Part shown: one piece after another, positions 1,429 through 15,227 of the stretch
How the letters are laid out: every line of letters begins with the position of its first letter
Position numbering within the stretch: position 1 is the first letter of the stretch
Source: a virus
Virus record (IMG/VR): IMGVR_UViG_3300042867_000389
Span: 1-35,162 of that record
DNA length: 35,162 nucleotides
Direction: 5' to 3' (one strand)
The notes under the pieces: model-generated
Seen by the model: only the letters and a program-made list of their open reading frames with translations
Database searches by the model: none
What the model was told of the DNA's origin: nothing
Translations under genes and position numbers: made by a program

Positions 1429-4170
1429 TTATTTTCTTTTGCGTCTGCAATTCCATCTCTTAAGAGAGGCTGCCTTAGGAGTATCTTCTCCGTTTTTATC
1501 TTTCATAGGACCGGGCATACCGCCCATTCTTGCACAAAATGAATGTTGTCTATTTTTTCTCTTGCCAGTTGGATTAGGTTCTGTCACTGCTGTTGATAAC
1601 TTTGATCCAGGATTTTCACGACGATATGCTTTAACCGCAGCTTTACTCATGCCATCTGTGTTATCTTGTTGATTGACTTTTTTCCAATCTTCTTTCATAG
1701 CTTGAGCAGTAGCAATTCGCATCTTCTTAGACATAGGCATTTCTGGATTATCACGATGAATAGCTTTTGCAATCTCTTCACGCTTTTTCATTTCTTCTGG
1801 TGTCATATGACGTTCCATAAGCTTCTTAATGCTTTTTGGCATATCTTTGTGATCACAGCCACAACCAGCTTTTTCTAAACGAAGAGCAGCTTCTACAAGC
1901 TTTTCTTCCCATACATTTCCATATTTGGTTTGAAATTTAATTTGTGTGGCATTCGAATTCATCCAGCTATGAATGCTTTCTGAAACTGTTACACTACTTC
2001 CAATTCTTGTTGGTATTTGTGATGTTGAAATTTCAGGACCAACACCATCTTTTGCAATGATCTCTTGACCTGGTATTTCTTGAGCATACACTTTGACAAG
2101 CGATTTTGTACCTTCTTCACGTTCAGAAGGTTTATTGCCTTTTGCTTCTTTCATAAACTCTTCGAACTTCTCGTTCACAGGTATGCAGTATGGATCTTTA
2201 TCTTCATTCATTACTCTCACGAGATTATTTCCTTGACTATGGTATAGAACATGATTCTTACCGTTAACTTTGCGACCAAATCTACCGAAACCATAGTACG
2301 AAAGACCTAACCGTCTTGCTTGTACCATTACTTCGTTATCTGGCATATGTTTTGGCATTGGTGTAATATCTTGACGAATTTGTGTTAGCGTCTTAAAGCT
2401 TTTTGGTGCCTGATATTGAGTGATACCACGGCGCTCTGCTTCTTGTTCGATCCACTTTTGAGAACGCGGATTCTTGTTATCAGCACGAACAAACTGTTGT
2501 GCCATACGACGAACGCGATCAAAATCAGCTTGTACTTTTAACTTCTCGTCAGGTAAAGCATTACGGGTATCTACAGTATTGTCGATGACAGCAAATTTTT
2601 GATTGCCAAAAATCTTTTGCAGTTCACCAATATTTTCTTGAGCAGCTTTCCACTTTTCTGTACGAATGTCTGGTGAGTTATCGGCTATTCCTTGCTTGTC
2701 AGTGCCATCAGGAACTTTACGCTTGCCCATCTTACCACGCTCAACATTGCGTTGTCTGGATACATCATTGGATGTATTGACAAACACCATCATTGTTTCG
2801 TAGCCACCATATTCAAGTCTTTGTTTGATGAGTTTAATTTTTTCAATATCATCAGCAGTGCCATTGATGATAACACCTAAACGGCCTCTTAGATATTCAG
2901 TCTCGCGCTTACGTGTAGTCTTCTTGGCTTTTTTACGAATTACCTCACGCTCAACTCTTTCATTTTCTGGCATTTCAAGATCAAGACCATTCTTCTGCAT
3001 TAGAAATTCAAAAGCAACGTCAGAATTAACTTCACGCAATCCTTCACCCTGAAGAACAGAGTTCATTACATAATCTTTACCAGAACCAGGACCACCAGCT
3101 AAGAATATAGCTTTCATCTTACCTGGATCATTGATTCCTTCAGAGATTGTTTCCTCAATAATGTGATCTTTGGAAAACATATGTGGGTTCTCTTTTGCAA
3201 ACCAACGCATTACTTTACCAGCTTCTGCGTTTGCTTCATTCTCAATATCAGAACCTGTATCGCCTTCTTTAGCGATATCTTTGCCAATACGACCTTCTTC
3301 ATTCTGCTTATGATGCACAAGCTCATGTGCTATCGAACGAAACACATCCATTGGATGACGGCTCTTCGTTGAAATAGAAAGTTCATTCTTTGAGGGATTG
3401 TATGCGGCAAATGAATTGTAATCGTCGTTTTCATCTTTATGACGAACAGATGGAAGCGATTTGATGCCTAATTTTTTAGATGCAAAGCTTACGAATGAGT
3501 CCAGCATTGGTGCTAGTTCTTTGCGTGTGATTTCTTCTCTAATGGTAGCAGCTTCATTAATGCTATGAAACTTTCGAATTTGAGAGTATACTTTGCGAAC
3601 ATGTGCAGTAGGTACTCCTGCGTGATATGCTTTAAAGTGTTCCCAATTGCCTTCTTTGGCCAATTTTTCAAGCTTAGATGCCGACACAGTGGATGTCAGT
3701 TCATCCTCAGACATGTCGCGAGGATCTTTATTACTTTCTGTGCGATTACCACCAGCAGTATGAACTTTCCAACTTTTGAAGTTGAAATCTATTTGACCTT
3801 TTTTATTAGGTCTACCATTATATTTTTTCAGATATTCTTGGTATTCTGGCACACGATCAGAACCTGCTATCAGATGAAGATCATCATGATGTTGATTCAT
3901 GTGTGTTAAGAAATGATGAAGGCTTCGTGTTTCTGGTGTTCCAACATGAACTGGATGATTAAATAGCTTCTCAGCTAGTGCTTTCTTTGTGAGAATATCT
4001 AGGGGTTCTGCTGCACCTGACAGTCCGACGGTCAGCTTACCGCCTACTTTTTGGGCAAGTTGCTTGCCCTGATCGACTGCTGTTCTGTGTCCTCGTTGAG
4101 GAATACGGGCTTTGCCGTAGAACGCTACACCAGGTACCTTCTGTGGTACCGTTTTTGATTTAATTTTCAT
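1429..4170 (-). CDS. Multidomain fusion: nucleotidyltransferase, HExxH metallopeptidase, P-loop kinase, C-terminal basic domain
   Basis: 913 residues. Residues 1-200 look like a cytidylyltransferase-fold adenylyltransferase: a degenerate HxGH site (PQRGH, residues 24-28), LIAGSDRVPEYQEYLKKYNG at about 100-119, and a VSASKLEKLAKEGN segment matching the ISSTxxR region. Residues 281-287 (AHELVHH) with E312 look like a zinc-peptidase site. GGPGSGKD at 359-366 is a Walker A motif of a kinase domain running to about residue 540. The last 75 residues (MSKAAVKAYRRENPGSKLST and SFCARMGGM) form a small basic domain seen at the ends of phage proteins. A CTAAATAC box sits 33 nt upstream of the ATG. Joining three enzyme domains in one chain is unusual; whether the first site is active is unclear because the first His of HxGH is Gln. 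Confidence 0.85.
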   Translation of the reverse strand: MKIKSKTVPQKVPGVAFYGKARIPQRGHRTAVDQGKQLAQKVGGKLTVGLSGAAEPLDILTKKALAEKLFNHPVHVGTPETRSLHHFLTHMNQHHDDLHLIAGSDRVPEYQEYLKKYNGRPNKKGQIDFNFKSWKVHTAGGNRTESNKDPRDMSEDELTSTVSASKLEKLAKEGNWEHFKAYHAGVPTAHVRKVYSQIRKFHSINEAATIREEITRKELAPMLDSFVSFASKKLGIKSLPSVRHKDENDDYNSFAAYNPSKNELSISTKSRHPMDVFRSIAHELVHHKQNEEGRIGKDIAKEGDTGSDIENEANAEAGKVMRWFAKENPHMFSKDHIIEETISEGINDPGKMKAIFLAGGPGSGKDYVMNSVLQGEGLREVNSDVAFEFLMQKNGLDLEMPENERVEREVIRKKAKKTTRKRETEYLRGRLGVIINGTADDIEKIKLIKQRLEYGGYETMMVFVNTSNDVSRQRNVERGKMGKRKVPDGTDKQGIADNSPDIRTEKWKAAQENIGELQKIFGNQKFAVIDNTVDTRNALPDEKLKVQADFDRVRRMAQQFVRADNKNPRSQKWIEQEAERRGITQYQAPKSFKTLTQIRQDITPMPKHMPDNEVMVQARRLGLSYYGFGRFGRKVNGKNHVLYHSQGNNLVRVMNEDKDPYCIPVNEKFEEFMKEAKGNKPSEREEGTKSLVKVYAQEIPGQEIIAKDGVGPEISTSQIPTRIGSSVTVSESIHSWMNSNATQIKFQTKYGNVWEEKLVEAALRLEKAGCGCDHKDMPKSIKKLMERHMTPEEMKKREEIAKAIHRDNPEMPMSKKMRIATAQAMKEDWKKVNQQDNTDGMSKAAVKAYRRENPGSKLSTAVTEPNPTGKRKNRQHSFCARMGGMPGPMKDKNGEDTPKAASLKRWNCRRKRK

Positions 4171-4202
4171 TGTCCCTCTACAGGATGTTATATCTATAGA
4201 GG

Positions 4203-4209
4203 TATTTAG
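4203..4209 (-). promoter_or_regulatory. CTAAATA late-promoter-like box
   Basis: CTAAATAC on the minus strand, 33 nt before the ATG of the 913-residue gene. The same box occurs at a similar distance before four other genes (7473, 10255, 12582, 24619), and resembles the T4 late box TATAAATA. Confidence 0.5.
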
Positions 4210-4214
4210 TATTC

Positions 4215-4919
4215 TTAGATATTGATCCCGTATGCTTTACGTTTTACAGCACTACGAACTGCCGACTTCACTTCTTCAGCAACATGTTTTTTGCTGTGGT
4301 TGTATCGCGTTACCTTATCTCCCTTGACAAGGTATCCAATCGCTTCAATGTTAGGAAACATCTCTGCAACTTTAAAGAGCATGTCTAGATTAGCTTTATG
4401 ATCATCCCACATGCGAATTCGATCAAATTTACCAGATGCGAGATACTTTTTGAGAATGACACCCTTGTTGATATGTGCGGGCATAGAAGAATTAAGATTG
4501 GACAGATTGCCTGAACGTTCTACGTAAACGTGATCGATAGGAAAACCATGATCTCTCCATGCTTGCAGGAATTCATGATGATCTTCGAAATCAGCCCGAG
4601 CTGTCAGAATGATTGAGTGGGAGTTTTCAGTCTGGTTCATGACAATATTTTTTGCACGATCTAGAATACTATTGATAGGTTTGAATGTATTACGAAATAC
4701 TTTACCTGATCTGAACTCTGAGAAATCAAATACCTCATCATGTTGAAGTTGATAATGATTGAAGGCTTTTGGATCTAAAACGTGAATGACTTTGCCATTC
4801 TTTACAACCTTAACTTTAGCATCCGTCTTGCCAAGAGTGTCATCGATGTCCCATACATTGAGAGTTCGGATTTCTTTCTTGTGAGTCTTAAGATAATGAT
4901 CTAGCTTCATTTGTCCCAT
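4215..4919 (-). CDS. HAD-superfamily phosphatase
   Basis: 234 residues with all three HAD motifs: nucleophile motif WDIDDTL (D24 and D26), motif II ILTARAD near residue 107, and the acidic motif IRMWDDHKANLD near residue 170. No signal peptide, so cytoplasmic. The fold fits a nucleotide or polynucleotide 3'-phosphatase of the PseT type, which its neighbours (a ligase-like protein upstream and a P-loop kinase domain downstream) would suit; this is inference. The ATG at 4919 overlaps the preceding gene by 13 bases. An internal ATG at 4910 forms an ATGA stop/start overlap and has GGGA in front, so it is an equally good start. Confidence 0.85.
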   Translation of the reverse strand: MGQMKLDHYLKTHKKEIRTLNVWDIDDTLGKTDAKVKVVKNGKVIHVLDPKAFNHYQLQHDEVFDFSEFRSGKVFRNTFKPINSILDRAKNIVMNQTENSHSIILTARADFEDHHEFLQAWRDHGFPIDHVYVERSGNLSNLNSSMPAHINKGVILKKYLASGKFDRIRMWDDHKANLDMLFKVAEMFPNIEAIGYLVKGDKVTRYNHSKKHVAEEVKSAVRSAVKRKAYGINI

Positions 4920-6139
4920 GTCTTTGTGGCATTAAAGTTTGCCTGTGAAAATTCCAATCTATCTACTAATTTTACAGCATTACCACTGATCTTGTCAATA
5001 GCAACAAAACCTTCCGCATTAGTAATTTTGTATCCATTATCGACACGTAGATATGTTCCGAATGCATCTTTTGCCATTTGCAACTTACGAACAATCATGT
5101 TCTTTGCCCGAACCAAAATGTTCTGTAAATCGAATATTTTTTTCAATTCGTTTTTATGGGAACGATAGAAGTCCATAATAATTTTCTTTTCCTGCTCACG
5201 GTTTCGCTTTGTATCGGCTTTCTTAGCATCAAGAATATTACGATTAAGCTTCTCTTCAATACTGGCAATAAGACCTGCAACATGAGAAGCAGTGTTGGTA
5301 ATTTCTTGTCCAGCACGAACTTTGGAATTGTTCCATGTCTTGATAGGAATCTTGTATATATCGTTTGTTGCGATTATGTTGAGCGTTTTTGGTGATATGG
5401 TTCTAAATAGAGATCCTGCTTGAGCAAGAATAGAATTCAATATTTTTGTTTCGTCTTCTGTAAATGTAGCTGTACCAGAAGCATCAACATAAGAAGCATC
5501 TCTAAACCATACGTTCTTAGTCGCTCGTAAATTTGAAATATTAGCACCAAATGATGCTCTCATATTTGCTAGTGTCTTGCCTGCATAAGTTGTATGCCAA
5601 ACAATACCCATCTTCGCAGCATGAAGATTCTTCGCTAACTCTGAATTGACAGGCACAGCATAGACAATAGTGTTTGGTTGAAAGGTAACAAAAGACTGAC
5701 CATCAATCTGTACAGTCTTCAAGTCTGAACTTGTAAACATCATATCGCCTTGAAGAACACCATGAATATTTAATTCAGGTAGATACTCCAATGCAATTTT
5801 TAACTTTGCATTAAGACCTTCACCAGGATGATTCTTATCGATGTCTGCTTTCGTGTAGTTCAGTTTTGCATTCTGTGCAAACACACCTTTTGTACCAACA
5901 AAGAACTTGCCATTTTCTGGATTGATGCCAGCAAAAATTGAAGGTGCACCATCCCATTTCGTTGTAATGTTCACATGTGTTTTAGCGTGACCTGCAAGCA
6001 TGTCTCTTAGAGATTGTAGAAAGTTGATTGCTCCACGTGTGCCGAGAACTCCACCATTGAGTACCTCATCTTCAAGATGCTCTAGATGGAGATTCTTGCC
6101 TTCTTTACTCTCAGTAAGATATTCTGTGTAGTTGATCAT
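4907..6139 (-). CDS. Ligase-like nucleotidyltransferase (putative RNA/DNA ligase-like phage protein)
   Basis: 410 residues. Motifs of covalent nucleotidyltransferases can be followed in order: motif I KWDG (K61-G64), a GVLQGDMMF segment near 127-135 in the place of motif III, NAEGFVAI with E376-G377 in the place of motif IV, and NAVKLVDR with K390 in the place of motif V. A long helical insertion (about 290-345) separates III from IV. The ATG at 6139 forms a TGATG overlap with the stop of the upstream gene, so the two are translationally coupled; a TTG three bases earlier is less likely. Known phage relatives are annotated only as conserved unknowns, so ligase activity is inferred. Confidence 0.75.
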   Translation of the reverse strand: MINYTEYLTESKEGKNLHLEHLEDEVLNGGVLGTRGAINFLQSLRDMLAGHAKTHVNITTKWDGAPSIFAGINPENGKFFVGTKGVFAQNAKLNYTKADIDKNHPGEGLNAKLKIALEYLPELNIHGVLQGDMMFTSSDLKTVQIDGQSFVTFQPNTIVYAVPVNSELAKNLHAAKMGIVWHTTYAGKTLANMRASFGANISNLRATKNVWFRDASYVDASGTATFTEDETKILNSILAQAGSLFRTISPKTLNIIATNDIYKIPIKTWNNSKVRAGQEITNTASHVAGLIASIEEKLNRNILDAKKADTKRNREQEKKIIMDFYRSHKNELKKIFDLQNILVRAKNMIVRKLQMAKDAFGTYLRVDNGYKITNAEGFVAIDKISGNAVKLVDRLEFSQANFNATKTWDK

Positions 6140-7440
6140 CAATCTTTCTTCATTCTTTTCTTAATGACAGCTTTGACTTTTTCTGCAATTTTAGGTCTTT
6201 TAGGCAGCTTTGGTGTTTCAAGGCTTCCGGTAGCTTTTGTTCCACCAAGGTGCTTACTCTTTCGAATTCTTGGTCTCAATCTAGAGATTGGTTCTCTATG
6301 TGCCTTTAAGAATTCTTTTGTAGTCATAACTTTAGCATCTTTACCAATCTCAGCAATATGTGTCGCGCGACCTTCTTCGGTTGCAAACTTGCCATTACCT
6401 GTCAGTGCTTCTTCGGCAACATGATGAATCAGATCTGGATGTTTATCGTGAAGTTTCTGTACAATTTTATGGGCGCGTTCGTGGTCTCCGGCTTCCATAT
6501 GTTTTCTGACCTTCTGCAGGTGTTCTTCATTTTCAGGTGTGTCGATCTTGCCTTTCTTCATAGCATGGCTATAGATGGCATGAAATTCTGCAGGACTTGA
6601 AGACATTAGTTGTGAGTTGCCTGTCTTTTTGAACGAGATGGCTTTAACACCTTTCGTACCTTTTTTCGACCTGATGATCAGAGCATCACCTTTTGAAGTT
6701 GCTCCGGCTCCAGTCACACCTTTGCTTAGATAATGCTTAGATAGTTTAGGCTTTGCTTTGCCAGAATGTTCCATGGAATCACCATCTTTATAGTGATCAG
6801 AAAAGTCTGGATGATTTCTCATTCCATGTACAGTATGTGCAGCATCTCTTAGATTTTGATAGTATGTCTTTCTTGCAAGATTATGAGATTCCGAAGTACC
6901 TACTTTTTTGTTATTGCCTGAAATCTTACCAGAAAACTCGTGGTCTTCAGCATTCTTGATGTGTAGAGGATGTTTCGGATCTTTTTCTGCCTTATCAATT
7001 TCAGCTAACGTGCTATCAAGGCTGTGTTTACTCTTATCTTTTGCGTTCATTCCCGAAAAGTGATTCCATACCTTCTTTACAGCATGTTCTTCATTATGTT
7101 TGCCATCTTTGTCGCTTGGCTTACGAATAGAGCTTAAAGGAATTTTAACAGTTCTTGTGCTACCAGAAGGTATAGCATGTATGTGGGTAACGCCATGTTT
7201 ATCTATTTCTTTGCGCTTGACCGTAAGTCTTGTTCCTTTTGGAATACCATCATGATCTTTTTCCAACTCATGGGTATCAGGCGCATGTCTGTCACCTTTA
7301 GGAAGATACGGATCAACATACTTTTCAATGTGTCGAGCCCCAATAGGTGATGCTGCCTTAGCGTTTAGTTTTGCTTCACCGAGAATTTTTCTTCTTAGGT
7401 TATTGTTTGTTTCTGTCAAAATTTCCTGTAAAGAACGCAT
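6139..7440 (-). CDS. Hypothetical basic phage protein, possible nuclease-like core
   Basis: 433 residues from the ATG at 7440, which has AGAGG seven nt upstream. An earlier in-frame ATG at 7482 has no ribosome site, sits in the tail of a terminator hairpin and would lie upstream of the CTAAATA box at 7473, so it was not chosen. Very rich in Lys, His and Ser. The segment KGDALIIRSKKGTKGVKAIS followed by FKKTGNSQLMSSSPAEF has an acidic residue followed by SxK-like spacing, which could be a PD-(D/E)XK nuclease core; weak evidence. The C-terminus is strongly basic. Stop overlaps the next start (TGATG). Confidence 0.75.
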   Translation of the reverse strand: MRSLQEILTETNNNLRRKILGEAKLNAKAASPIGARHIEKYVDPYLPKGDRHAPDTHELEKDHDGIPKGTRLTVKRKEIDKHGVTHIHAIPSGSTRTVKIPLSSIRKPSDKDGKHNEEHAVKKVWNHFSGMNAKDKSKHSLDSTLAEIDKAEKDPKHPLHIKNAEDHEFSGKISGNNKKVGTSESHNLARKTYYQNLRDAAHTVHGMRNHPDFSDHYKDGDSMEHSGKAKPKLSKHYLSKGVTGAGATSKGDALIIRSKKGTKGVKAISFKKTGNSQLMSSSPAEFHAIYSHAMKKGKIDTPENEEHLQKVRKHMEAGDHERAHKIVQKLHDKHPDLIHHVAEEALTGNGKFATEEGRATHIAEIGKDAKVMTTKEFLKAHREPISRLRPRIRKSKHLGGTKATGSLETPKLPKRPKIAEKVKAVIKKRMKKD

Positions 7441-7472
7441 CAGTCGACCTCTTATTAGTTTTTGTTCTTCAG

Positions 7473-7479
7473 TATTTAG
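7473..7479 (-). promoter_or_regulatory. CTAAATA late-promoter-like box
   Basis: CTAAATAC 33 nt before the ATG at 7440, the same distance as in front of the 913-residue gene. Confidence 0.5.
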
Positions 7480-7485
7480 CATAAC

Positions 7486-7518: not shown

Positions 7519-7608
7519 TGGTGGAAGGTGTGGGATTCGAACCCACGGTACCGATTAAGGTACGCCTCGTTAGCAGTGAGGTGCCTTCGGCCGCTCGGCC
7601 AACCTTCC
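7519..7608 (-). tRNA. tRNA-Ser(GCU)
   Basis: Class II tRNA with long variable arm, acceptor GGAAGGT/ACCTTCC, anticodon loop CTGCTAA, T-loop TTCGAAT, A73 and encoded CCA (7519-7521). The upstream protein's TAG stop shares its last base with G1. Confidence 0.93.
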
Positions 7609-8033
7609 TAATCATGAATGTAGATAAACGTATTTTCAGATCCTTCGTCTTTAACTAGCCTATAGAGCCACTGAGCTTCACGAGGTGCAAGTCTAACACA
7701 ACCATGAGACGCCGGAGATCCAAGATTATGTATATCATATGTAGCGTGAATTGCGTATCCCTCATGAAAGAAAATTGACCAAGGCATCGGAGCGTTATCA
7801 TACTTCTTGCTGTAGTGGATCTTCTTAAGAAGATAGGGGCGATATTCTCCAGACGGTGTATTGTATCCTTCTCGACCCGTAGAAATTGGCCACTCATATG
7901 TATCGTTTAAAGTTTCGACATACATCATCTGTTGTGATTTTACAATAGTAATAACTACTTCTGCTTTAGCTCCAACAACTAACATATAGATTGCAAAGAT
8001 TACAACGCATACCATAACGAGAAATCTAGCCAT
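7608..8033 (-). CDS. L,D-transpeptidase (YkuD domain), exported
   Basis: 141 residues. An N-terminal hydrophobic segment (about 4-22) acts as signal peptide or membrane anchor. The catalytic motif HATYDIHNLGSPASHGCVRL (H96, S109, H110, G111, C112, R114) is the complete YkuD signature, with C112 as nucleophile. YkuD enzymes form or exchange 3-3 or 4-3 cross-links in peptidoglycan, acting in the periplasm. Its ATG follows directly on the TAA of the FlbD-like gene, so it is the last member of a three-gene operon ending at tRNA-Ser. In a phage this could serve cell-wall remodelling during infection, lysis timing or superinfection blocking; the choice is inference. Confidence 0.92.
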   Translation of the reverse strand: MARFLVMVCVVIFAIYMLVVGAKAEVVITIVKSQQMMYVETLNDTYEWPISTGREGYNTPSGEYRPYLLKKIHYSKKYDNAPMPWSIFFHEGYAIHATYDIHNLGSPASHGCVRLAPREAQWLYRLVKDEGSENTFIYIHD

Positions 8034-8231
8034 TTAAACTGCTTCTCCAATTAACTTCATTACTTCACCAAGACTTTCTTCGACTGACCATGTAACATTT
8101 TCCGCATGGACTTGAGTTAAAAGGCTGCCGCCAGGAACGTGATCCTCATATACCACTTTGATATGATTTACATTGAGATATAGAGGATCACCTTTTCGTT
8201 CAGGAACCATATTCGTTAGCTTGATAAACAT
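8034..8231 (-). CDS. FlbD-like small protein
   Basis: 65 residues resembling the FlbD family: starts MFIKLTN, has a LNVNHIKVVYE strand region in the middle, a threonine/valine strand (TQVHAENVTWSV) and a final helix with the VEESLGEVMKLI pattern. FlbD in bacteria lies in flagellar operons but is poorly characterised; similar short proteins occur in phages. TAATG overlap with the RNase H-like gene upstream and direct abutment with the transpeptidase downstream show an operon. Role here unknown. Confidence 0.65.
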   Translation of the reverse strand: MFIKLTNMVPERKGDPLYLNVNHIKVVYEDHVPGGSLLTQVHAENVTWSVEESLGEVMKLIGEAV

Positions 8232-8725
8232 TAGGCTACTTCCTTCTTAGCATTCCAAATTGCGTCATTGAATCGATCAGCACAGTATGAAGCTGCCCAA
8301 GCATTTGGCTTGACCAGAGGTATGATGTTACACATACCACGAATGTAACCAACAGCTTCGTTTATAACACATGAAGAACCATGCTTTGAATCTGGATTGA
8401 TATCAAGATGGATTTCAACCACACGATCTTCCAGAGCTTCTTCAAGGTCTATGTATAGCTGCGCGGTCTTCATCACTTCATTCATAAGGCGCATACGAGG
8501 CTTGTCCTTCTGCTGGTCATAGTCGCGCTCACGCACTATACCACCAAACACCTTACAACCGTTCTTGCCGTTCTTGTGAACAACTACCACGTTGATGTAG
8601 TCAGCATACCACACACCGTCAATCTGAAAACGTTCTGAGTCGCCGCCTAGATATACCTTTGTTTCTGGAGATTGTTCATGAATAAACGCGCGAACGGCGT
8701 CTAGGTCGAGATGCTTTCTAATCAT
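8231..8725 (-). CDS. RNase H-like fold protein (DUF458/YkuK-like)
   Basis: 164 residues. VYLGGDSERF, VVVVHKNGKNGCKVFGG, then HLDINPDSKHGSS and AVGYIRGM match the RNase H-like YkuK family, including acidic residues at the ends of the first and fourth strands. The ATG at 8725 has AGGA eight nt upstream; an upstream GTG would place the start inside a tRNA. First gene of a three-gene unit with the FlbD-like and L,D-transpeptidase genes. Substrate unknown; a nuclease role is suggested by the fold only. Confidence 0.75.
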   Translation of the reverse strand: MIRKHLDLDAVRAFIHEQSPETKVYLGGDSERFQIDGVWYADYINVVVVHKNGKNGCKVFGGIVRERDYDQQKDKPRMRLMNEVMKTAQLYIDLEEALEDRVVEIHLDINPDSKHGSSCVINEAVGYIRGMCNIIPLVKPNAWAASYCADRFNDAIWNAKKEVA

Positions 8726-8745
8726 TATTAAGTTCCTAAAAAAGA

Positions 8746-8832
8746 TGGTGCTGGCCACAGGATTCGAACCTGCAATGGGATTACTCCGACGGATTACAAA
8801 ACCGTTGCCTTCAGCCGTTCAGCCAAGCCAGC
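8746..8832 (-). tRNA. Class II tRNA with anticodon UGU (Thr codon ACA)
   Basis: Acceptor GCTGGCT/GGCCAGC, Leu/Ser-like D-arm, anticodon loop TTTGTAA with a U-U mismatch at 31-39, 15-nt variable region able to form an arm, T-loop TTCGAAT, A73, encoded CCA. The anticodon is that of threonine but the body is class II, so the amino acid carried cannot be stated. Confidence 0.8.
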
Positions 8833-8839
8833 ATTTAAC

Positions 8840-8847
8840 TATTTATA
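8840..8847 (-). promoter_or_regulatory. TATAAATA late promoter box before a tRNA
   Basis: Perfect T4-type late box on the minus strand. It ends 8 nt upstream of G1 of the UGU tRNA, so the expected start point falls at the mature tRNA 5' end. Confidence 0.6.
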
Positions 8848-8921
8848 TGGTGCCTCTATCCAGAATCGAACTGGAGCCAATCCCCTACCAAAGGATTGTT
8901 CTACCACTATACTATAGAGGC
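8848..8921 (-). tRNA. tRNA-Thr(GGU)
   Basis: Acceptor GCCTCTA/TAGAGGC, anticodon stem ATCCT/GGGAT with loop TTGGTAG, T-stem TCCAG/CTGGA, A73, encoded CCA. The stem register giving a seven-base loop is the only one that pairs. Confidence 0.78.
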
Positions 8922-8930
8922 TTTGTTAAG

Positions 8931-9052
8931 TTAGAGAAGTGTACACTCACCCATATTTTACTCTTGTGTACCGGGACTAAAGGAGCCAACGAGTATGGTT
9001 CCGCGCCCCAACTGTAATTACCGCCAGACCTTGCGGGCCTGAACTTCTCTAA
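8931..9052 (-). ncRNA. Structured RNA A between tRNA-Leu and tRNA-Thr
   Basis: A perfect 10-bp inverted repeat (TTAGAGAAGT/ACTTCTCTAA) closes 122 nt. Inside, on the minus strand, are CAGGCC-CGCAA-GGTCTG, a GGAACCA/TTGGCTCC hairpin with one mismatch, and GTACAC/GTGTAC. The 5' arm begins at once after the CCA of tRNA-Leu. No tRNA fold and no convincing reading frame. Comparable in position to the stable RNAs C and D of the T4 tRNA cluster, whose function is unknown. Confidence 0.6.
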
Positions 9053-9053
9053 T

Positions 9054-9135
9054 TGGTGCGGATAGAGGGACTTGAACCCCCACGCCGAAGCACTAGTTCC
9101 TAAGACTAGCGTGTCTGCCATTTCACCATATCCGC
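9054..9135 (-). tRNA. tRNA-Leu(UAG)
   Basis: Acceptor GCGGATA/TATCCGC, anticodon stem CTAGT/ACTAG with loop CTTAGGA, class II variable arm, T-loop TTCAAGT, A73, encoded CCA. Confidence 0.93.
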
Positions 9136-9140
9136 GTTAT

Positions 9141-9216
9141 TGGTAGCCGATGAGAGATTCGAACTCCCGACATTCTCGGTGTAAACGAGACGCTACTACC
9201 ACTGAGCTAATCGGCC
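9141..9216 (-). tRNA. tRNA-Val(UAC)
   Basis: Acceptor GGCCGAT/ATCGGCT, anticodon stem TCTCG/CGAGA with loop TTTACAC, T-loop TTCGAAT, A73, encoded CCA. Its first ten bases are also the end of the heme-oxygenase-like gene. Confidence 0.93.
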
Positions 9217-9704
9217 TTAATTTCGTCCATAATTTTTAGAAGAGCATGAAAACACTTTTTAGATTCCTCTGCAATCTCTTCACGCTCTCTAAACTTATTA
9301 AGTTCCACAAGTGCAGCCTTACGATCATCCCATTCCAGATGAGTGGTAGGATAACCAACAAGACGCCTACGCATAATCTCACCGCCCATCAGGTGCGCTC
9401 CAGTAAGCACATAAGCAGCACCCGCAATATCTTTTTCCGTTATTAAGGAATTAGTATATTTGTTGGCAGCACGTATTATATTAGCAGGACAGTTGGTTGA
9501 TGTCAAGTCATTTTGAACTCTTTCCGTTCTACGAATGACTTCTGGAATATGTTGATCAACTTCCCAGTGTATAGTGTAAAGAGCGGAAAGCCAGTCAGCA
9601 TACCATTTCATGGGTGGACTACCACTTGCCATAGCAGCACCAACAGGATGCGCTTCACAAGCATGGTGTAAGTCTCTAGTTGCTTCCCATAATGGACCTG
9701 GCAT
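9207..9704 (-). CDS. Heme oxygenase-like protein
   Basis: 165 residues. The N-terminus LWEATRDLHHACEAHPVG matches the proximal-helix pattern of bacterial heme oxygenases (H13 as likely heme ligand, E17 following). YVLTGAHLMGGEIMRRRL at 98-115 matches the distal-helix pattern with the flexible Gly-Gly pair (G107-G108). Length is slightly below the usual 190-220. Such enzymes open heme to biliverdin with release of iron and CO, needing an electron donor. AGGAG lies six nt before the ATG. The 3' end overlaps tRNA-Val. Known in cyanophages for bilin synthesis; here iron or heme scavenging or a biliverdin signal are possible. Family assignment good, activity unproven. Confidence 0.75.
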   Translation of the reverse strand: MPGPLWEATRDLHHACEAHPVGAAMASGSPPMKWYADWLSALYTIHWEVDQHIPEVIRRTERVQNDLTSTNCPANIIRAANKYTNSLITEKDIAGAAYVLTGAHLMGGEIMRRRLVGYPTTHLEWDDRKAALVELNKFREREEIAEESKKCFHALLKIMDEIKAD

Positions 9705-9726
9705 TTATGCTCCTACTGATTAATAA

Positions 9727-9853
9727 GGTGAGGTGGGATTCGGGTACACCCACAAGTCACGGCCCAGATACCTGTTCAACGTGACAGCCTAGATTCTCTT
9801 GGTCGGAGACGACACATCTTCTACTCTCGTAGATCACGCGCGGGCACCACACC
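9727..9853 (-). ncRNA. Structured RNA D upstream of the heme-oxygenase-like gene
   Basis: Inverted repeat GGTGAGG/CCACACC (six of seven pairs) encloses a second repeat GTGGG/CCCAC next to it, arranged like a tRNA acceptor and T-arm, plus GTCACG/CGTGAC and CTAC-GAGA-GTAG hairpins. No CCA and no T-loop sequence, so not a tRNA. It ends about 20 nt before the AGGAG of the gene and could be its leader or a separate RNA. Confidence 0.5.
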
Positions 9854-9903
9854 ATCTAGCCAAGTTAGCCGGTCTTTGCGTCCAGCCATTTCCTTGCACT
9901 CGA

Positions 9904-9923
9904 CCGATTCCCGTCGGAATCGG
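9904..9923 (-). other. Perfect 8-bp hairpin with four-base loop
   Basis: CCGATTCC and GGAATCGG flank a GACG loop on the minus strand, between structured RNAs D and E. No T-run follows, so a structural or processing element is more likely than a terminator. Confidence 0.5.
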
Positions 9924-9932
9924 CATTTAAAT

Positions 9933-10027
9933 TGGAGGCCCGTTAGCGGTTACTGCGATCAGTGATTCCTTATGGAAGGGTCAAGGCAGGAACTTACACC
10001 CCGAGGATTTATATACCGTCACGGGCC
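9933..10027 (-). ncRNA. tRNA-like RNA E with acceptor-like stem and encoded CCA
   Basis: Perfect 7-bp stem GGCCCGT/ACGGGCC followed by U and CCA, the ending of a tRNA, enclosing 78 nt with three small hairpins (GGGTG.TAAG/CTTGACCC; TTCC-ATAA-GGAA; ACTG-ATCG-CAGT). There is no recognisable T-loop or anticodon arm. It is either a degenerate tRNA or a stable RNA that uses tRNA end processing. Confidence 0.5.
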
Positions 10028-10043
10028 AACGACGGTTCTTTAT

Positions 10044-10217
10044 TTACATTCCAGAAACTATTGAAGTTACTGAATCGTGGATCCATACCCACCAAGCAGC
10101 AATGGCAGCTAAGATAGCGGCGCCGCCCTTCTTAAGGTCCCAACCGTTCTGCCACATTTCCCAGAGAACCCAGAGAACGGCAACGACTAGAACTAATACA
10201 ACGAGTGTGTTTAGCAT
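10044..10217 (-). CDS. Small membrane protein, 57 residues
   Basis: Starts MLNTLVVLVLVVAVLWVLW and has a second hydrophobic stretch GGAAILAAIAAWWVWI after a short polar, partly basic loop, so two membrane segments. GAGG lies seven nt before the ATG and a CTAAATA box 38 nt before it. Sits between a structured RNA and the thermonuclease gene. Unknown function; size and topology would suit a holin, but nothing proves it. Confidence 0.75.
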   Translation of the reverse strand: MLNTLVVLVLVVAVLWVLWEMWQNGWDLKKGGAAILAAIAAWWVWIHDSVTSIVSGM

Positions 10218-10254
10218 GTTAATACCTCATTATTGGCCTTTATTGACCGTGAAG

Positions 10255-10261
10255 TATTTAG
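10255..10261 (-). promoter_or_regulatory. CTAAATA late-promoter-like box
   Basis: CTAAATAC 38 nt before the ATG of the 57-residue membrane protein. Confidence 0.5.
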
Positions 10262-10268
10262 AATGCTG

Positions 10269-10619
10269 CTACTTCTTGATATTACCAGATGCAATAATAG
10301 CTTCATTCAAGCTTTCAGACTGAAAAGACCCAGTCCACATAATAACACCAAGGCTTCGACCATACTTATCTCTAGAATTATATTTGATGCTATAATATAC
10401 AAACTTGTTGTTGATAGCCTGTCTTTGTTGGATCCAGTCTTTGGTAAAATCAGATGCGACAATACCGCCCGGCGATGCGTTTGGTCCAAATACTTCTGGA
10501 GTGTCAACGCCAAGGAGACGAACACGTTCCTTAACTTTGATATTGAATCCAAGGTCTATTTCAATATCAATAGTATCGCCATCGACAATATTAAGAACTT
10601 TGCAATTATATGTGTACAT
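10269..10619 (-). CDS. Thermonuclease (staphylococcal nuclease-like)
   Basis: 116 residues. IVDGDTIDIEIDLGF (D13, D15), ERVRLLGVDTPE (R34, D39, E42) and DKYGR (R88) reproduce the calcium and catalytic residues of the SNase family, which hydrolyses DNA and RNA phosphodiester bonds. No signal peptide, so it would act in the cytoplasm, for example on host DNA or RNA. Complete domain. Located between two tRNA genes. Confidence 0.92.
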   Translation of the reverse strand: MYTYNCKVLNIVDGDTIDIEIDLGFNIKVKERVRLLGVDTPEVFGPNASPGGIVASDFTKDWIQQRQAINNKFVYYSIKYNSRDKYGRSLGVIMWTGSFQSESLNEAIIASGNIKK

Positions 10620-10638
10620 TGTTGTTCTCTTTATAATT

Positions 10639-10714
10639 TGGTGCCGCTGCCAAGTTTCGAACTGGGTTATCCCCCTTATGAGGAGGGCACGATAGCCAAT
10701 ACCGTCCCAGCGGC
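10639..10714 (-). tRNA. tRNA with anticodon CAU (Met or Ile2)
   Basis: Acceptor GCCGCTG/CAGCGGC, anticodon stem CCCTC/GGGGG with loop CTCATAA, T-loop TTCGAAA with one C-U mismatch in the T-stem, A73, encoded CCA. Whether C34 is modified to lysidine (Ile) cannot be seen. Confidence 0.88.
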
Positions 10715-10719
10715 ATAGA

Positions 10720-10742
10720 TAAGGGCCGAAGCCCTTATCGTT
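10720..10742 (-). terminator. UUCG hairpin after the Gly/Asn-rich gene
   Basis: ATAAGGGC-TTCG-GCCCTTAT on the minus strand, ten nt after the stop at 10752. No T-run, but stable UUCG hairpins commonly end T4-type messages. Confidence 0.6.
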
Positions 10743-10751
10743 TATCTGTCA

Positions 10752-11429
10752 TTACGTCCCAGGTCCGTATAGACCGCTGGAAGGATCAAAACCATTTATA
10801 TCATTGCTATTATGTTGACGAGGGTTGTTATTACCGCCGCCGTTGTTATTGCCAGGTCCGTTGCCGTTACCTTCGTTGCCGGTTCCGTTGCCGCCACCGC
10901 CACCGTTTCCTATGCCGCAGTTACCGCCGCCAGCTCCTTGGCAACCACCATCGCCGCCATTATTGCCGCCGTTACCGTTACCATTGCCATTACCGTTGCC
11001 ATTACCATTGTCGCCATCGTTACCGTTGTCGCCTCCATTATCGCCACCGTTGCCATTACCGTTGCCATTACCGTTGCCATTTCCATGGCCGTTATCATGA
11101 CCATTGCCATTTCCATTTCCATTACCGTTGCCATTTCCATGGCCGTTATCATGGCCGTTATCATGGCCATTTCCATTTCCATTACCGTTGCCATTACCAT
11201 GGTCGTTATCGTCAGGCTTTCCTGGCTTATCACGATGCTTCATATTGAACTTGAAATCAGGAAGATTCTTATTATCTGCACCTGATCCCTTATTGCAGCT
11301 TGACCATTCATCACGAAGGATATTGTAGCATTGCTTGTCAAGACCGCTAAGAGCGGCACTGGCATGAGCAAGTGGTGTGAAAGCAGTCGCAGCTAGTGCT
11401 ACTGCGCCGAACAGAATTGTGAACTTCAT
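10752..11429 (-). CDS. Exported Gly/Asn-repeat protein
   Basis: 225 residues. A clear signal peptide (MKFTILFGAVALAATAFTPL, then AHASAA) with cleavage near residue 24. A short globular part has two cysteines (CYNIL and SSCNKG). From about residue 75 to 160 the chain is almost only Gly-Asn dipeptides with HDN and GDN inserts, then a Gly-rich tail with two more cysteines. The DNA is a degenerate 6-bp repeat, which may vary in length by slippage. A perfect TATAAATA box lies 59 nt before the ATG, so late expression is likely. The composition suggests an extended, possibly cation-binding exported or surface polymer; no function known. Confidence 0.85.
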   Translation of the reverse strand: MKFTILFGAVALAATAFTPLAHASAALSGLDKQCYNILRDEWSSCNKGSGADNKNLPDFKFNMKHRDKPGKPDDNDHGNGNGNGNGNGHDNGHDNGHGNGNGNGNGNGNGHDNGHGNGNGNGNGNGNGGDNGGDNGNDGDNGNGNGNGNGNGNGGNNGGDGGCQGAGGGNCGIGNGGGGGNGTGNEGNGNGPGNNNGGGNNNPRQHNSNDINGFDPSSGLYGPGT

Positions 11430-11487
11430 TTTTAGATTCCTTTTTTCACGTTTAAGTATTTGTTACATACTACATAGTATATACACT

Positions 11488-11495
11488 TATTTATA
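11488..11495 (-). promoter_or_regulatory. TATAAATA late promoter box
   Basis: Perfect T4-type late box 59 nt upstream of the exported repeat protein and downstream of tRNA-Ph​e. Confidence 0.65.
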
Positions 11496-11507
11496 ATAAG
11501 TGAAATT

Positions 11508-11583
11508 TGGTGTGTTCTCTCTGGATCGAACAGAGTTCTTTCGCTCTTCAGGCAAACGTGAGCACCAGCTTCACCAAGAACAC
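11508..11583 (-). tRNA. tRNA-Phe(GAA)
   Basis: Acceptor GTGTTCT/AGAACAC, D-stem GTGA/TCAC, anticodon stem TTTGC/GCGAA with loop CTGAAGA, T-stem CTCTG/CAGAG, A73, encoded CCA. Confidence 0.92.
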
Positions 11584-11585
11584 AT

Positions 11586-11732
11586 TTAGTCTTTTAGCAG
11601 TTGAGGAGAAGATTCCGACAACTGTTTCTTTTCGTATTCTCTAATTTTAGCAGAATAATCTTCGTTTGTCAAGTTATGCCATCCAACACACTTTCCAGTT
11701 GGACTTCTTCCACATCCACAATCTTTACTCAT
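11586..11732 (-). CDS. 48-residue Cys-containing small protein
   Basis: MSKDCGCGRSPTGKCVGWHN followed by a charged helix (NEDYSAKIREYEKKQL). The CxC...C...H pattern (C5, C7, C15, H19) could bind zinc. AAGGAAAA precedes the ATG. Stop lies three nt before tRNA-Phe. Structured RNA C directly precedes it and could be its leader. Function unknown. Confidence 0.75.
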   Translation of the reverse strand: MSKDCGCGRSPTGKCVGWHNLTNEDYSAKIREYEKKQLSESSPQLLKD

Positions 11733-11753
11733 ATTGTTTTCCTTTTAATTAGA

Positions 11754-11855
11754 TCGGGTACGTGAGCCTCTGCACGACCTGAGAAAGTCATTTAGCGGCT
11801 TTGCCAGCAGTTACTCATTAAGCCAGTTGTCTCAGTTACTCTGGCTTCGTCCCGA
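11754..11855 (-). ncRNA. Structured RNA C after tRNA-Ser(UGA)
   Basis: Closing repeat TCGGG/CCCGA; inside, a perfect 7-bp stem AAGCCAG/CTGGCTT whose loop contains CTGAG able to pair with CTCAG further 3' (possible pseudoknot), and CGTG/CACG near the 3' end. It lies between a tRNA CCA end and the 48-residue gene, about 20 nt before its start codon, so it may be a leader element or separate RNA. Confidence 0.5.
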
Positions 11856-11858
11856 AAG

Positions 11859-11946
11859 TGGCGGATAGAGTAGGATTCGAACCCACGAAACATTTCTGTT
11901 CTCCAGTTTTCAAGACTGGCGCCTTCAGCCGCTCGGCCATCTATCC
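11859..11946 (-). tRNA. tRNA-Ser(UGA), copy 1
   Basis: Class II, acceptor GGATAGA/TCTATCC, anticodon stem CCAGT/ACTGG with loop CTTGAAA, G73 as expected for serine, encoded CCA. Variable arm nearly identical to the second copy at 12625. Confidence 0.94.
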
Positions 11947-11952
11947 AAATTG

Positions 11953-12543
11953 TTAATGGCTATCTACACATTCACATTCAAAAGCATTGGTTGCAAACCA
12001 TATTGCATAAGTGTATCTTGTGCCCTTTGAAATGGCATTAACCTTATGTAGGCATTCTTCATTTGCTTTGAAGAAGAAAACTGAGCCTTTTTTAGGAACA
12101 TTTGTATATTCACTACCATCTTCAAATCGAACTACTGTTTCACCGCTAACATAGTTATCATTAAGATATGCAATCATACTATACTTGCGAGGCGCGAAGG
12201 CGTGTTTCATTGGGCCTTCGTTTCCATCATCTTTATGAAAATCCATATACATGCCTGTTCGCCAGACAACAATATCAGAAAAATTTGGATACACAAATGT
12301 ATTGTAATGTTTACCTACAAGTTGACTCAATAAGAATCTATAAGAATCGATTTGACAACGCAATCTTTTGTTTTCAATATCAAGGAATGGAAGATTGTCG
12401 TTTTGTAGCCAAGGTTGCTTTTCAATAACGGGTTTTTCTGGTTTATTTATTGCCATATAGTTGACAATACTGTCGCATAGATTATCTGGTATAACATTAT
12501 CATATCTAGCCACCAGATTATTTTCAATTTCGACTTTATACAT
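11953..12543 (-). CDS. 2-oxoglutarate/Fe(II) oxygenase, prolyl-4-hydroxylase-like
   Basis: 196 residues from the ATG at 12543, which has GGAG six nt upstream; a GTG eleven codons earlier is inferior. Iron ligands are visible: H103-K-D105 in MDFHKDDG and H166 in CLHKV; R176 in GTRYTYAIWF binds 2-oxoglutarate. SMIAYLND, SGETVVRF and KKGSVFFFKA are the usual double-stranded beta-helix strands. Such enzymes hydroxylate prolyl or other side chains, or nucleobases; substrate not predictable. Similar genes are common in T4-like marine phages. CTAAATA box 39 nt upstream. Confidence 0.9.
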   Translation of the reverse strand: MYKVEIENNLVARYDNVIPDNLCDSIVNYMAINKPEKPVIEKQPWLQNDNLPFLDIENKRLRCQIDSYRFLLSQLVGKHYNTFVYPNFSDIVVWRTGMYMDFHKDDGNEGPMKHAFAPRKYSMIAYLNDNYVSGETVVRFEDGSEYTNVPKKGSVFFFKANEECLHKVNAISKGTRYTYAIWFATNAFECECVDSH

Positions 12544-12581
12544 ATCAACTCCGTAAATGGTAAGGGTTGGAAACACTACTC

Positions 12582-12588
12582 TATTTAG
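12582..12588 (-). promoter_or_regulatory. CTAAATA late-promoter-like box
   Basis: CTAAATA 39 nt before the ATG of the 2OG oxygenase gene. Confidence 0.45.
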
Positions 12589-12624
12589 CAGCCATCAAGC
12601 TTGTTGGCAATGCACCCTCATAAA

Positions 12625-12712
12625 TGGCGGAAGATGTAGGATTCGAACCCACGAAACATTTCGGTTCTCTCGCTTTCAAGGCGAGCGCAATAGACCACTC
12701 TACCAACCTTCC
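12625..12712 (-). tRNA. tRNA-Ser(UGA), copy 2
   Basis: Class II, acceptor GGAAGGT/ATCTTCC, anticodon stem CTCGC/GCGAG with loop CTTGAAA, G73, encoded CCA. Same anticodon as the tRNA at 11859; variable and T-arms are almost the same while acceptor, D-arm and anticodon stem differ. Confidence 0.93.
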
Positions 12713-12811
12713 AAATTCGATGCGATTTCTTATAGTGGTTACGCCCTCCACTTTTATGATTGACGAGAGTTTCCAGTCAAATACAGTCCACTCACAAACC
12801 TCTAACATATA

Positions 12812-13159
12812 TTATTTTATCACAACCATTTGCACTCTGCAAACTCCGTGACATCCAATTTTTCGAGCAGCAGCTCTGGAAAGATCAATATGACGACCCT
12901 TAATAAATGGGCCGCGATCATTAATTCTCACAACAACGGATCTTCCTTTATGTATAATACGGACTTTTGTCCCAAATGGAAGTGTTTTATGCGCCGCTGT
13001 TAACGCATTGGGATTAAACTTTTCCCCATTAGCCGTTATCTTGCTCTTACTACATTCACCTGGTTTCACACAATCATACCAGGAAGCAACGGTAGCATGA
13101 GCAGAAGGTATTGCCGCAAATAAAAATGATGTGGCAATTAAAGTTTTAATAAGTTTCAT
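12812..13159 (-). CDS. RlpA-like exported double-psi beta-barrel protein
   Basis: 115 residues. Signal peptide [20 protein letters not shown] with cleavage near AHA (22). Then the RlpA core: [44 protein letters not shown] (D81 in the place of the catalytic Asp) and [12 protein letters not shown]. No lipobox cysteine, so periplasmic and soluble. RlpA proteins are lytic transglycosylases acting on peptidoglycan lacking stem peptides, or bind glycan. AAAGGA precedes the ATG. Together with the L,D-transpeptidase it gives the phage two envelope-acting exported enzymes. Confidence 0.9.
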
Positions 13160-13175
13160 TAATTTTATCCTTTAA

Positions 13176-13267
13176 TGGAGCATTCGACAGGATTCGAACC
13201 TGCATTAGTTGTTATACCATTTCCAGTTACCTTTCTCTCCGTTCGTAGCGGAGGGGGATACGAATGC
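13176..13267 (-). ncRNA. tRNA-like RNA with T-arm and CCA but no normal D-arm
   Basis: Perfect acceptor-like stem GCATTCG/CGAATGC, T-arm GCAGG-TTCGAAT-CCTGT, U73 and encoded CCA. After only seven nt comes CTCCG-CTACGAA-CGGAG, a 5-bp/7-nt arm that would give anticodon ACG (Arg), and then about 33 nt with no obvious pairing. A D-arm is missing between acceptor and anticodon-like arm. Either a degenerate tRNA-Arg or a tRNA mimic. Confidence 0.6.
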
Positions 13268-13272
13268 ATTAT

Positions 13273-13348
13273 TGGAGGAGCCGATCAGATTCAAACTGAT
13301 ACCTCAAGGATTTGCAGTCCCGCGCATTAATCGTTTTGCTACGGCTCC
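13273..13348 (-). tRNA. tRNA-Cys(GCA)
   Basis: Acceptor GGAGCCG/CGGCTCC, anticodon loop CTGCAAA, T-stem ATCAG/CTGAT, U73 (a cysteine identity base), encoded CCA. The outermost anticodon-stem pair is mismatched. Confidence 0.9.
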
Positions 13349-13355
13349 ATTAACT

Positions 13356-13363
13356 TATTTATT
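13356..13363 (-). promoter_or_regulatory. AATAAATA late box before tRNA-Cys
   Basis: NATAAATA box ending 7-8 nt upstream of the tRNA-Cys 5' end, the same placement as before three other tRNAs. Confidence 0.45.
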
Positions 13364-13364
13364 C

Positions 13365-13438
13365 TGGCTGCCAGGCATGGATTCGAACCACGATAGCATG
13401 AGTCAGAGTCATGCGTCCTACCGTTAGACGACCCGGCA
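13365..13438 (-). tRNA. tRNA-Gln(CUG)
   Basis: Acceptor TGCCGGG/CCTGGCA, anticodon stem CATGA/TCATG with loop CTCTGAC, T-stem GTGG-type with TTCGAAT loop, G73, encoded CCA. Confidence 0.9.
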
Positions 13439-13491
13439 ATGTTCACTTGTTTGTACATATAGACGCTTCGCGTACAAATGAATGAACAAAG

Positions 13492-13566
13492 TGGTCCCGA
13501 GTGGTGGAATCGAACCACCGTATCATGTTCCACAGACATGCGTTCTAACCATTGAACTAAAACGGG
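13492..13566 (-). tRNA. tRNA-His(GUG) without G-1
   Basis: Anticodon stem CATGT/ACATG with loop CTGTGGA, T-stem GGTGG/CCACC, encoded CCA. The base before C1 is A, not G, and position 73 is A, not C. The acceptor CCCGTTT/ACTCGGG has two mismatches (5-68, 6-67). Confidence 0.9.
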
Positions 13567-13567
13567 T

Positions 13568-13643
13568 TGGTTGCAGGAGTGGGAATCGAACGCCACGACC
13601 TCTGGCTTATGAGACCAGCGAGCTACCTCTGCTCCATCCCGCA
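13568..13643 (-). tRNA. Initiator-like tRNA-Met(CAU)
   Basis: Acceptor TGCGGGA/TCCTGCA with a weak U1-A72 end, D-arm GGAGCAG...GGTAGCTC typical of initiators, anticodon stem CTGGT/GCCAG with loop CTCATAA, A73, encoded CCA. The three stacked GC pairs of classical initiators are only partly present. Confidence 0.88.
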
Positions 13644-13778
13644 TCACTTAAATGTACTAATGTATACTTCTTTCTTCTTGTCATAAATTTGTGAGACCAG
13701 TTTGTAACCGAATCTCACATACTGCTTGGCCAACGACTTAGCTCCGATAGCAGATAATGAAGTGAGTTTGAACATCAT
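13644..13778 (-). CDS. 44-residue small basic protein
   Basis: MMFKLTSLSAIGAKSLAKQY then VRFGYKLVSQIYDKKKEVYI and STFK. AGGAG precedes two adjacent ATGs; the second (13775) has the better spacing. Stop abuts the 5' end of the initiator-like tRNA. Amphipathic and basic; no family recognised. Confidence 0.65.
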   Translation of the reverse strand: MMFKLTSLSAIGAKSLAKQYVRFGYKLVSQIYDKKKEVYISTFK

Positions 13779-13789
13779 AACTCCTTGAT

Positions 13790-13864
13790 TGGTAGTTCCA
13801 GCGGGAGTCGAACCCGCCTCTGATCCTTGAAAGGGACCTGACCTAACCGATAGTCGATGGAACC
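13790..13864 (-). tRNA. tRNA-Glu(UUC)
   Basis: Acceptor GGTTCCA/TGGAACT, anticodon stem GGTCC/GGATC with loop CTTTCAA, T-stem GCGGG/CCCGC, A73, encoded CCA. Confidence 0.92.
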
Positions 13865-13869
13865 ATATT

Positions 13870-13944
13870 TGGAGAACCCTCTGGGATTCGAACCCAGGAC
13901 AGACGGATTAAAAGCCCGCTACTCTACCACTGAGTTAAGGGTTC
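13870..13944 (-). tRNA. tRNA-Lys(UUU)
   Basis: Acceptor GAACCCT/AGGGTTC, anticodon loop CTTTTAA on stem GCGGG/TCCGT (two GU pairs), T-stem CTGGG/CCCAG, U73, encoded CCA. Confidence 0.9.
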
Positions 13945-13947
13945 AAT

Positions 13948-14021
13948 TGGCTGGGAGACTAGGATTCGAACCTAGATAGCAGGAATCAAAATCCTGCGTC
14001 CTACCTTTAGACGATCTCCCA
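13948..14021 (-). tRNA. tRNA-Gln(UUG)
   Basis: Acceptor TGGGAGA/TCTCCCA, anticodon stem CAGGA/TCCTG with loop TTTTGAT, T-stem CTAGG/CCTAG, G73, encoded CCA. Confidence 0.92.
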
Positions 14022-14064
14022 ATATTAACTATATACTTTAAATGTCTACTACAGGATTAGCATT

Positions 14065-14454
14065 ATGAATAAAGGACTTAGAACTATGCCAACACTGTTA
14101 TTACTTTTGCTTTGTGCCATTTCAGTTTTCACAACGTTCTACCTTTTCTTTGAAATGAGAAACTATTATGCCTCGGCTAAGCAATATCAAGAACAGGCAT
14201 CGATAGCACAACATAACCTTGAAGTTGTTATCAAAGAGAAGACTGATCTTGAAGGTCAGATCACAACTCTAACGGAAGATGTTGATTATCTTAATACAAA
14301 GGTTGAGGATCAAAGACTTGTTATTGATCAACTCAACAAAGAACTTAAGGCCGCAAAGCAGAAGCCTATTGTAAAGCCTGTGCCTAAGCCTACACAACCG
14401 ACAAAGAAAAAGAAGAAGCGTATTTCATACGACATTGCTCCAAGTCAGCAGTAA
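14065..14454 (+). CDS. Plus-strand membrane-anchored coiled-coil protein (inner-spanin-like)
   Basis: 129 residues and the only convincing plus-strand gene. A short basic N-terminus, one membrane segment (about 8-28, TMPTLLLLLLCAISVFTTFY), then a long coiled coil with heptad-like Leu/Ile/Val (about 40-98), and a Pro/Lys tail (KPVPKPTQPTKKKKK). This topology is that of i-spanins such as Rz: cytoplasmic N-terminus and periplasmic coiled coil that helps fuse inner and outer membranes at lysis. No outer-membrane lipoprotein partner was seen nearby. AGGA precedes the ATG. The stop is two nt from the CCA of the oppositely oriented tRNA-Ile, so its transcript must run antisense through tRNAs unless stopped; a small hairpin with T-run lies at 14617. 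Confidence 0.8.
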   Translation: MNKGLRTMPTLLLLLLCAISVFTTFYLFFEMRNYYASAKQYQEQASIAQHNLEVVIKEKTDLEGQITTLTEDVDYLNTKVEDQRLVIDQLNKELKAAKQKPIVKPVPKPTQPTKKKKKRISYDIAPSQQ

Positions 14455-14455
14455 A

Positions 14456-14530: not shown

Positions 14531-14540
14531 GTAAATTAAT

Positions 14541-14600: not shown

Positions 14601-14616
14601 CTAGGCCTGCTTCGTA

Positions 14617-14640: not shown

Positions 14641-14649
14641 TTACACCCT

Positions 14650-15203: not shown

Positions 15204-15227
15204 CATTACCTCGTTGATTGTTGTTAT

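Follow-up and report, generated by a model that had tools for sequence, protein, structure and literature searches.

Organization of the DUF6267 module

The window analysed here, the 35,162-base virus record IMGVR_UViG_3300042867_000389, carries on its minus strand a module of four genes, one of which encodes a protein of the DUF6267 family that we consider as a candidate polynucleotide ligase. In order along that strand the genes occupy positions 6139–7482, 4907–6142, 4215–4919 and 1429–4170, and encode a basic protein of 447 amino acids (aa), the DUF6267 protein (411 aa), a HAD-superfamily phosphatase-like protein (234 aa) and a multidomain protein of 913 aa. The first two genes share 4 bases and the second and third share 13. 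The 4907–6142 frame starts with TTG and has an ATG at 6139, so K61 and K62 of its product are one lysine. An initial annotation of three adjacent genes had listed the sequences GGPGSGKD, WDIDDTL, KWDG, EGFVA and VKLVDR, and all were found at the places it gave, here assigned to the minus strand. It did not include the upstream 6139–7482 gene, which belongs to the same module, the N-terminal HIGH domain and C-terminal DUF6321 of the 913-aa protein, or the family identity of DUF6267.

Conserved motifs and predicted fold of the DUF6267 protein

The 411-aa protein is a full-length member of DUF6267 (PF19782), matching profile positions 1–376 of 376 with an E-value of 1.3e-107 and 360.9 bits against a cut-off of 27. 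It also belongs to phrog_455, and both are families of unknown function. DUF6267 is encoded in 464 phage records, nearly all from Synechococcus and Prochlorococcus phages; it is labelled ‘T4-like GC 71’ in cyanophage annotation and is named in no paper of the literature searched. It is thus catalogued but undescribed and, if the fold considered below is right, represents a new and strongly diverged family of ligase-type nucleotidyltransferases.

The ordered motifs of the covalent nucleotidyltransferase superfamily (I, KxDG; III; IV, EGxV; V) are all present in the protein. Motif I is K62-W-D-G, followed by a Ia-like K85, a III-like Q131-G-D133, a IIIa-like P-N157-T-I-V-Y161, H183-T-x-Y186, motif IV (E377-G-F-V) and motif V (K391-L-V-D-R395), with a helical insert of ~130 residues (about 229–356) between the third and fourth motifs. 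Distances from the catalytic lysine (Ia at +23, III at +69 to +71) are close to those in T4 Rnl2 (+19, +64), and the order and spacing of KxDG, G-[D/E], EGxV and the final Lys are shared with T4 RNA ligase 2 (RnlB, PF09414), DNA ligases, Trl1 and REL1. The motifs represent more than chance: across 130 homologues (39–79% identity) no change is seen at K62, D64, G65, Q131-G132-D133, E377, G378, V380 or K391. They are also invariant in 64 short homologues, and a natural version of ~300 aa found in some cyanophages lacks the helical insert while retaining every motif.

Sequence comparison gave no direct link to known ligases: hmmscan detected no match to PF09414 (the Rnl2 family), PF01068 (ATP-dependent DNA ligase) or PF01653 (NAD ligase), and searches of the PDB with the single protein or with a 12-sequence profile returned chance matches only. 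The AlphaFold2 (AF2) model of the full-length protein had a predicted local distance difference test score (pLDDT) of 83; when Foldseek compared it with viral structures, significant matches were confined to its own family, with weak matches to RNA and DNA ligases lower in the list. The insert swamped the full-length searches, and natural short homologues were modelled for this reason. The model of an insert-free homologue, built with 64 sequences, reached a pLDDT of 92.4, and its nine best matches in the PDB, each weak when taken alone, were all polynucleotide ligases. By our count, ~36 of the 50 listed matches were DNA ligases, RNA ligases, fungal tRNA ligase, NAD ligases or capping enzymes. 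It is this concentration of the list on one superfamily, together with the invariant ordered motifs, that strongly suggests the fold, and the 411-aa protein probably adopts that of a ligase-type nucleotidyltransferase, in agreement with the ligase-like character originally proposed for it.

Neighbours of DUF6267 across phages

To place the module in context, we counted neighbouring genes in 66 dereplicated DUF6267 loci with enough downstream sequence. A HIGH nucleotidyltransferase lies downstream in 56 of these, compared with 24 for the kinase and five for the HAD gene, and it is therefore the constant partner of DUF6267. The two are fused in S-PM2, and fusions of HIGH and kinase domains occur in both orders. 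A HAD gene after DUF6267 belongs almost wholly to the clade of the window, which differs from other DUF6267 loci in having added this gene and a partner containing kinase and HExxH regions. A freshwater clade had seemed to be devoid of a HIGH gene near DUF6267, but this does not hold for two contigs of that clade, in which a HIGH–kinase fusion is located 7 kb downstream. The window shares with cyanophages a gene order in which DUF6267 follows gp41 and precedes a cytidyltransferase-type gene; we found no literature that treats a cyanophage RNA ligase and cytidyltransferase together.

In a pelagiphage-like clade (L182, L185, L193, L197, L204, L223 and others) DUF6267 is followed by an adenylate kinase, a PNK-like kinase and a HIGH protein. 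The HIGH proteins of this clade that were tested gave a weak but repeated N-terminal match to Pol-beta nucleotidyltransferases, enzymes known as partners of phage RNA ligases (PMC7824862).

The partner encoded in the window (1429–4170) combines four regions: a divergent HIGH-superfamily nucleotidyltransferase domain (about aa 10–200), a putative HExxH metallopeptidase region (about aa 215–325), a PNK/zeta-toxin-like P-loop kinase (about aa 340–580) and a C-terminal DUF6321 (aa 835–906). Its HIGH motif is degraded, reading GKARIPQRGH compared with GRFNPPTxGH in the family, with GSDRV and SASK retained.

On the other side of DUF6267, the 447-aa protein contains a core, PKTD...(S)xK...QLMSG, with a later EAMTG, that is common to proteins in the same position in other phages, as judged from an iterative profile search and an alignment of 18 proteins encoded directly upstream of DUF6267. 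This core resembles a PD-(D/E)XK nuclease, a fold assignment that we infer from sequence.

Further upstream on the minus strand is a replication cluster (21665–27585) comprising a gp43-type DNA polymerase (25033–27585), UvsX (23518–24570) and a DnaB-type gp41 helicase (21665–23062). Hsp20 is also encoded upstream, and the order Hsp20, gp43, UvsX, helicase, module matches that of Kyanoviridae. Between helicase and module is an array of 30 tRNA genes (7519–18329, minus strand); with one further gene at 29691–29764, ARAGORN identified 31 in all, covering all 20 amino acids. Two other proteins are encoded on the minus strand among the tRNA genes upstream of the module: an RNaseH_like protein (8231–8758; PF04308, 4.5e-16) and, adjoining tRNA-Ser, a small protein (7608–8033) with an HGCVRL motif which, from its sequence, appears typical of L,D-transpeptidases. 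PADLOC returned no defence-family match among the window proteins.

The kinase and phosphatase compared with T4 RNA repair enzymes

The three adjacent genes had been likened to the PseT and RnlA proteins that repair cleaved tRNA in T4; the kinase and HAD products were compared with PseT. The alignment of the kinase domain with the PseT kinase extends over its full length (hhalign 99.1% over 145 columns, 21% identity, in a comparison that covered PseT alone among P-loop kinase families) and supports a relationship at the superfamily level. It exceeds the Pfam cut-offs for Zeta_toxin (8.5e-9) and AAA_33 (3.5e-6), the former being the better Pfam match, and is also better matched by phrog_12810/2071 than by PseT. 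Its Walker A motif ends in GKD, an ending shared by 35 of 98 relatives. Unlike in PseT, the kinase is fused to a HIGH nucleotidyltransferase and the HAD protein is the product of a separate gene, of another family.

The HAD protein (4215–4919) has the motifs DIDDT, TAR and DDH, and D-I-D-D-T, T/S-A-R and D-D are retained in most of 64 homologues. A kinship with the 3′-phosphatases of RNA repair is not supported: the Pfam scan gave no match to PF25109/PNK3P, and hhalign against PseT gave 21% over 38 columns, which is no match. Identity with the PseT phosphatase was rejected on these grounds. The sole connection to polynucleotide kinases is a weak match (1.5e-5) to phrog_415, a phage family named ‘polynucleotide kinase’.

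The longest close relative, a 167-kb contig (locus L013), encodes a DUF6267 protein 78% identical to that of the window in the same HAD and HIGH/kinase arrangement. About 20 kb from this module, at 150.8–153.5 kb (locus L388), it carries in a row a HAD_PNKP phosphatase (3e-31), a T4 Rnl1-type ligase (1e-20) and an AAA_33 kinase, the Rnl1 frame being interrupted in this metagenomic contig. In the relative, a canonical T4-type cassette thus exists apart from the DUF6267 module, which points to a different task for the module; this evidence comes from the relative, the window being too short for a search of its own phage for such a set.

DUF6267 and the reported lack of a DNA ligase in T4-like cyanophages

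Almost all T4-like cyanophages carry DUF6267, which is present in 365 Synechococcus and 61 Cyanophage records, compared with 376 and 61 for gp41. According to a review, the g30 ligase and rnh are absent from cyanomyoviruses, the RNase H of S-PM2 excepted; unrecognised distant homologues were considered one possibility, and use of host enzymes the more probable (PMC2984593). Six-frame scans of 25 records with DUF6267 revealed an ATP DNA-ligase domain in three and none in 22, no NAD-ligase domain in any of the 25, and an Rnl2-type domain in one of the scanned records. Where conventional ligases accompany DUF6267 (three records) they are separate genes. A search with T4 gp30 retrieved 2,520 phage records, with Synechococcus outside the ten commonest names, and a scan of viral contigs for DNA ligases of the DLP6 type found nothing. 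Because DUF6267 and a conventional DNA ligase occur side by side in the genomes of DLP6, S-CRM01 and a vibriophage, we rejected the idea that the one strictly substitutes for the other.

Discussion

Taken together, the near-universality of DUF6267, the reported lack of g30 and the scarcity of ligase domains are best fitted by a ligase that acts within the replication cluster, and the synteny with replication genes in the window and in Kyanoviridae counts in the same direction. We propose that the members of this phage family are ligase-type covalent nucleotidyltransferases and most likely act as polynucleotide ligases, and we put the chances of this proposal at about even. The substrate is more likely to be DNA nicks than cleaved tRNA. 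Located among the replication genes of phages reported to have no DNA ligase, DUF6267 is a candidate for that enzyme rather than clearly part of a tRNA-repair kit. It would then share with T4 gp30 a sealing function in the replication cluster, although it has no sequence similarity to PF01068 and no OB-fold domain after motif V. In such a scheme, K62 would be adenylylated by ATP (or NAD+), AMP would be handed from K62 to a 5′-phosphate end, and the enzyme would then close nicks or breaks that have a 3′-OH. DUF6267 forms the constant core of a replication-cluster module in Kyanoviridae-type T4-like phages, with the nuclease-like gene upstream and the HIGH-family nucleotidyltransferase downstream as partners. 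The clade of the window has added the HAD phosphatase and PNK-like kinase domain, which could yield 3′-OH and 5′-P ends and so give a healing-and-sealing set.

Several observations weigh against a ligase. The best Foldseek E-value for the short homologue was 0.055, so that no single match was significant, and the full-length model, where the helical insert dominates the search, had no significant match in the PDB. Alignment of DUF6267 with T4 Rnl2 by hhalign was likewise not significant, with only motif IV (EGYV) matched. Compared with T4 Rnl2 and other polynucleotide ligases, Asp replaces Glu in motif III, only one Lys is kept in motif V, a 130-aa helical insert separates IIIa from IV and no C-terminal domain follows motif V. 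Furthermore, three phages carry a conventional DNA ligase as well as DUF6267, and the task could fall to a ligase of the host, the option favoured in the review (PMC2984593). The departures in motifs III and V, and the presence of capping enzymes in the Foldseek list, would suit a covalent nucleotidyltransferase that joins no strands but acts in RNA 5′-capping or in nucleotidylation of proteins or small molecules. We regard this as rather unlikely, since most of the Foldseek matches are ligases, replication genes surround the module and several clades have a PNK-like kinase in it.

The equation of the module with the T4 PseT/RnlA set also seems unlikely, if a little less so. According to this scheme the HAD protein would strip a 2′,3′-cyclic or 3′-phosphate, the kinase would phosphorylate the 5′-OH and DUF6267 would seal breaks made by a host anticodon nuclease. 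The ligase-like fold, the PNK-like kinase, the weak link of the HAD protein to a polynucleotide kinase family and the 31 tRNA genes alongside the module are consistent with this, as is the clade in which an adenylate kinase, a PNK-like kinase and a possible Pol-beta domain accompany DUF6267. On the other hand, ligase, kinase and 3′-phosphatase are not conserved together at DUF6267 loci as in a T4-like RNA repair cassette: the HAD protein falls outside the PNKP phosphatase families, HAD and kinase are optional neighbours that are not adjacent to DUF6267 in most clades, the relative has its canonical HAD_PNKP–Rnl1–PNK set elsewhere, and hundreds of phages have the ligase-like gene as a core gene of the replication cluster. 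The constancy of the HIGH partner and its fusion to DUF6267 in S-PM2 raise a further alternative, a nucleotide or coenzyme module in which DUF6267 would be an NAD+-dependent ligase or adenylyl-transferring enzyme and the NMNAT-like HIGH domain and kinase would recycle NMN to NAD+. The named families nearest to the HIGH domain of locus L041 are NMN adenylyltransferases (6e-8), and the fusion of HIGH and kinase, in either order, recalls NadR, in which a HIGH nucleotidyltransferase is likewise joined to a P-loop kinase. However, the kinase of the window is of the AAA_33/zeta class rather than AAA_28, with no ribosylnicotinamide-kinase (AAA_28) match in the Pfam scan, the domain order varies, the HIGH motif is degraded and HIGH domains act on many substrates; we therefore find such a module improbable.

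A more specific form of the proposed sealing role, to which we assign only a slim chance, is that DUF6267 provides T4-like cyanophages with their long-missing ligase, self-supplied through its HIGH partner, for example as an NAD+-using enzyme whose NMN by-product is returned to NAD+ by the NMNAT-like protein. The most abundant phages of the sea include the T4-like cyanophages. A review notes that their replisome has no recognisable DNA ligase and, outside S-PM2, no RNase H (PMC2984593). If DUF6267 is indeed the ligase, a gene labelled hypothetical in nearly every T4-like cyanophage would supply the answer to the missing enzyme, a deeply diverged family would join the polynucleotide ligases, and a widely conserved marine gene would be explained.

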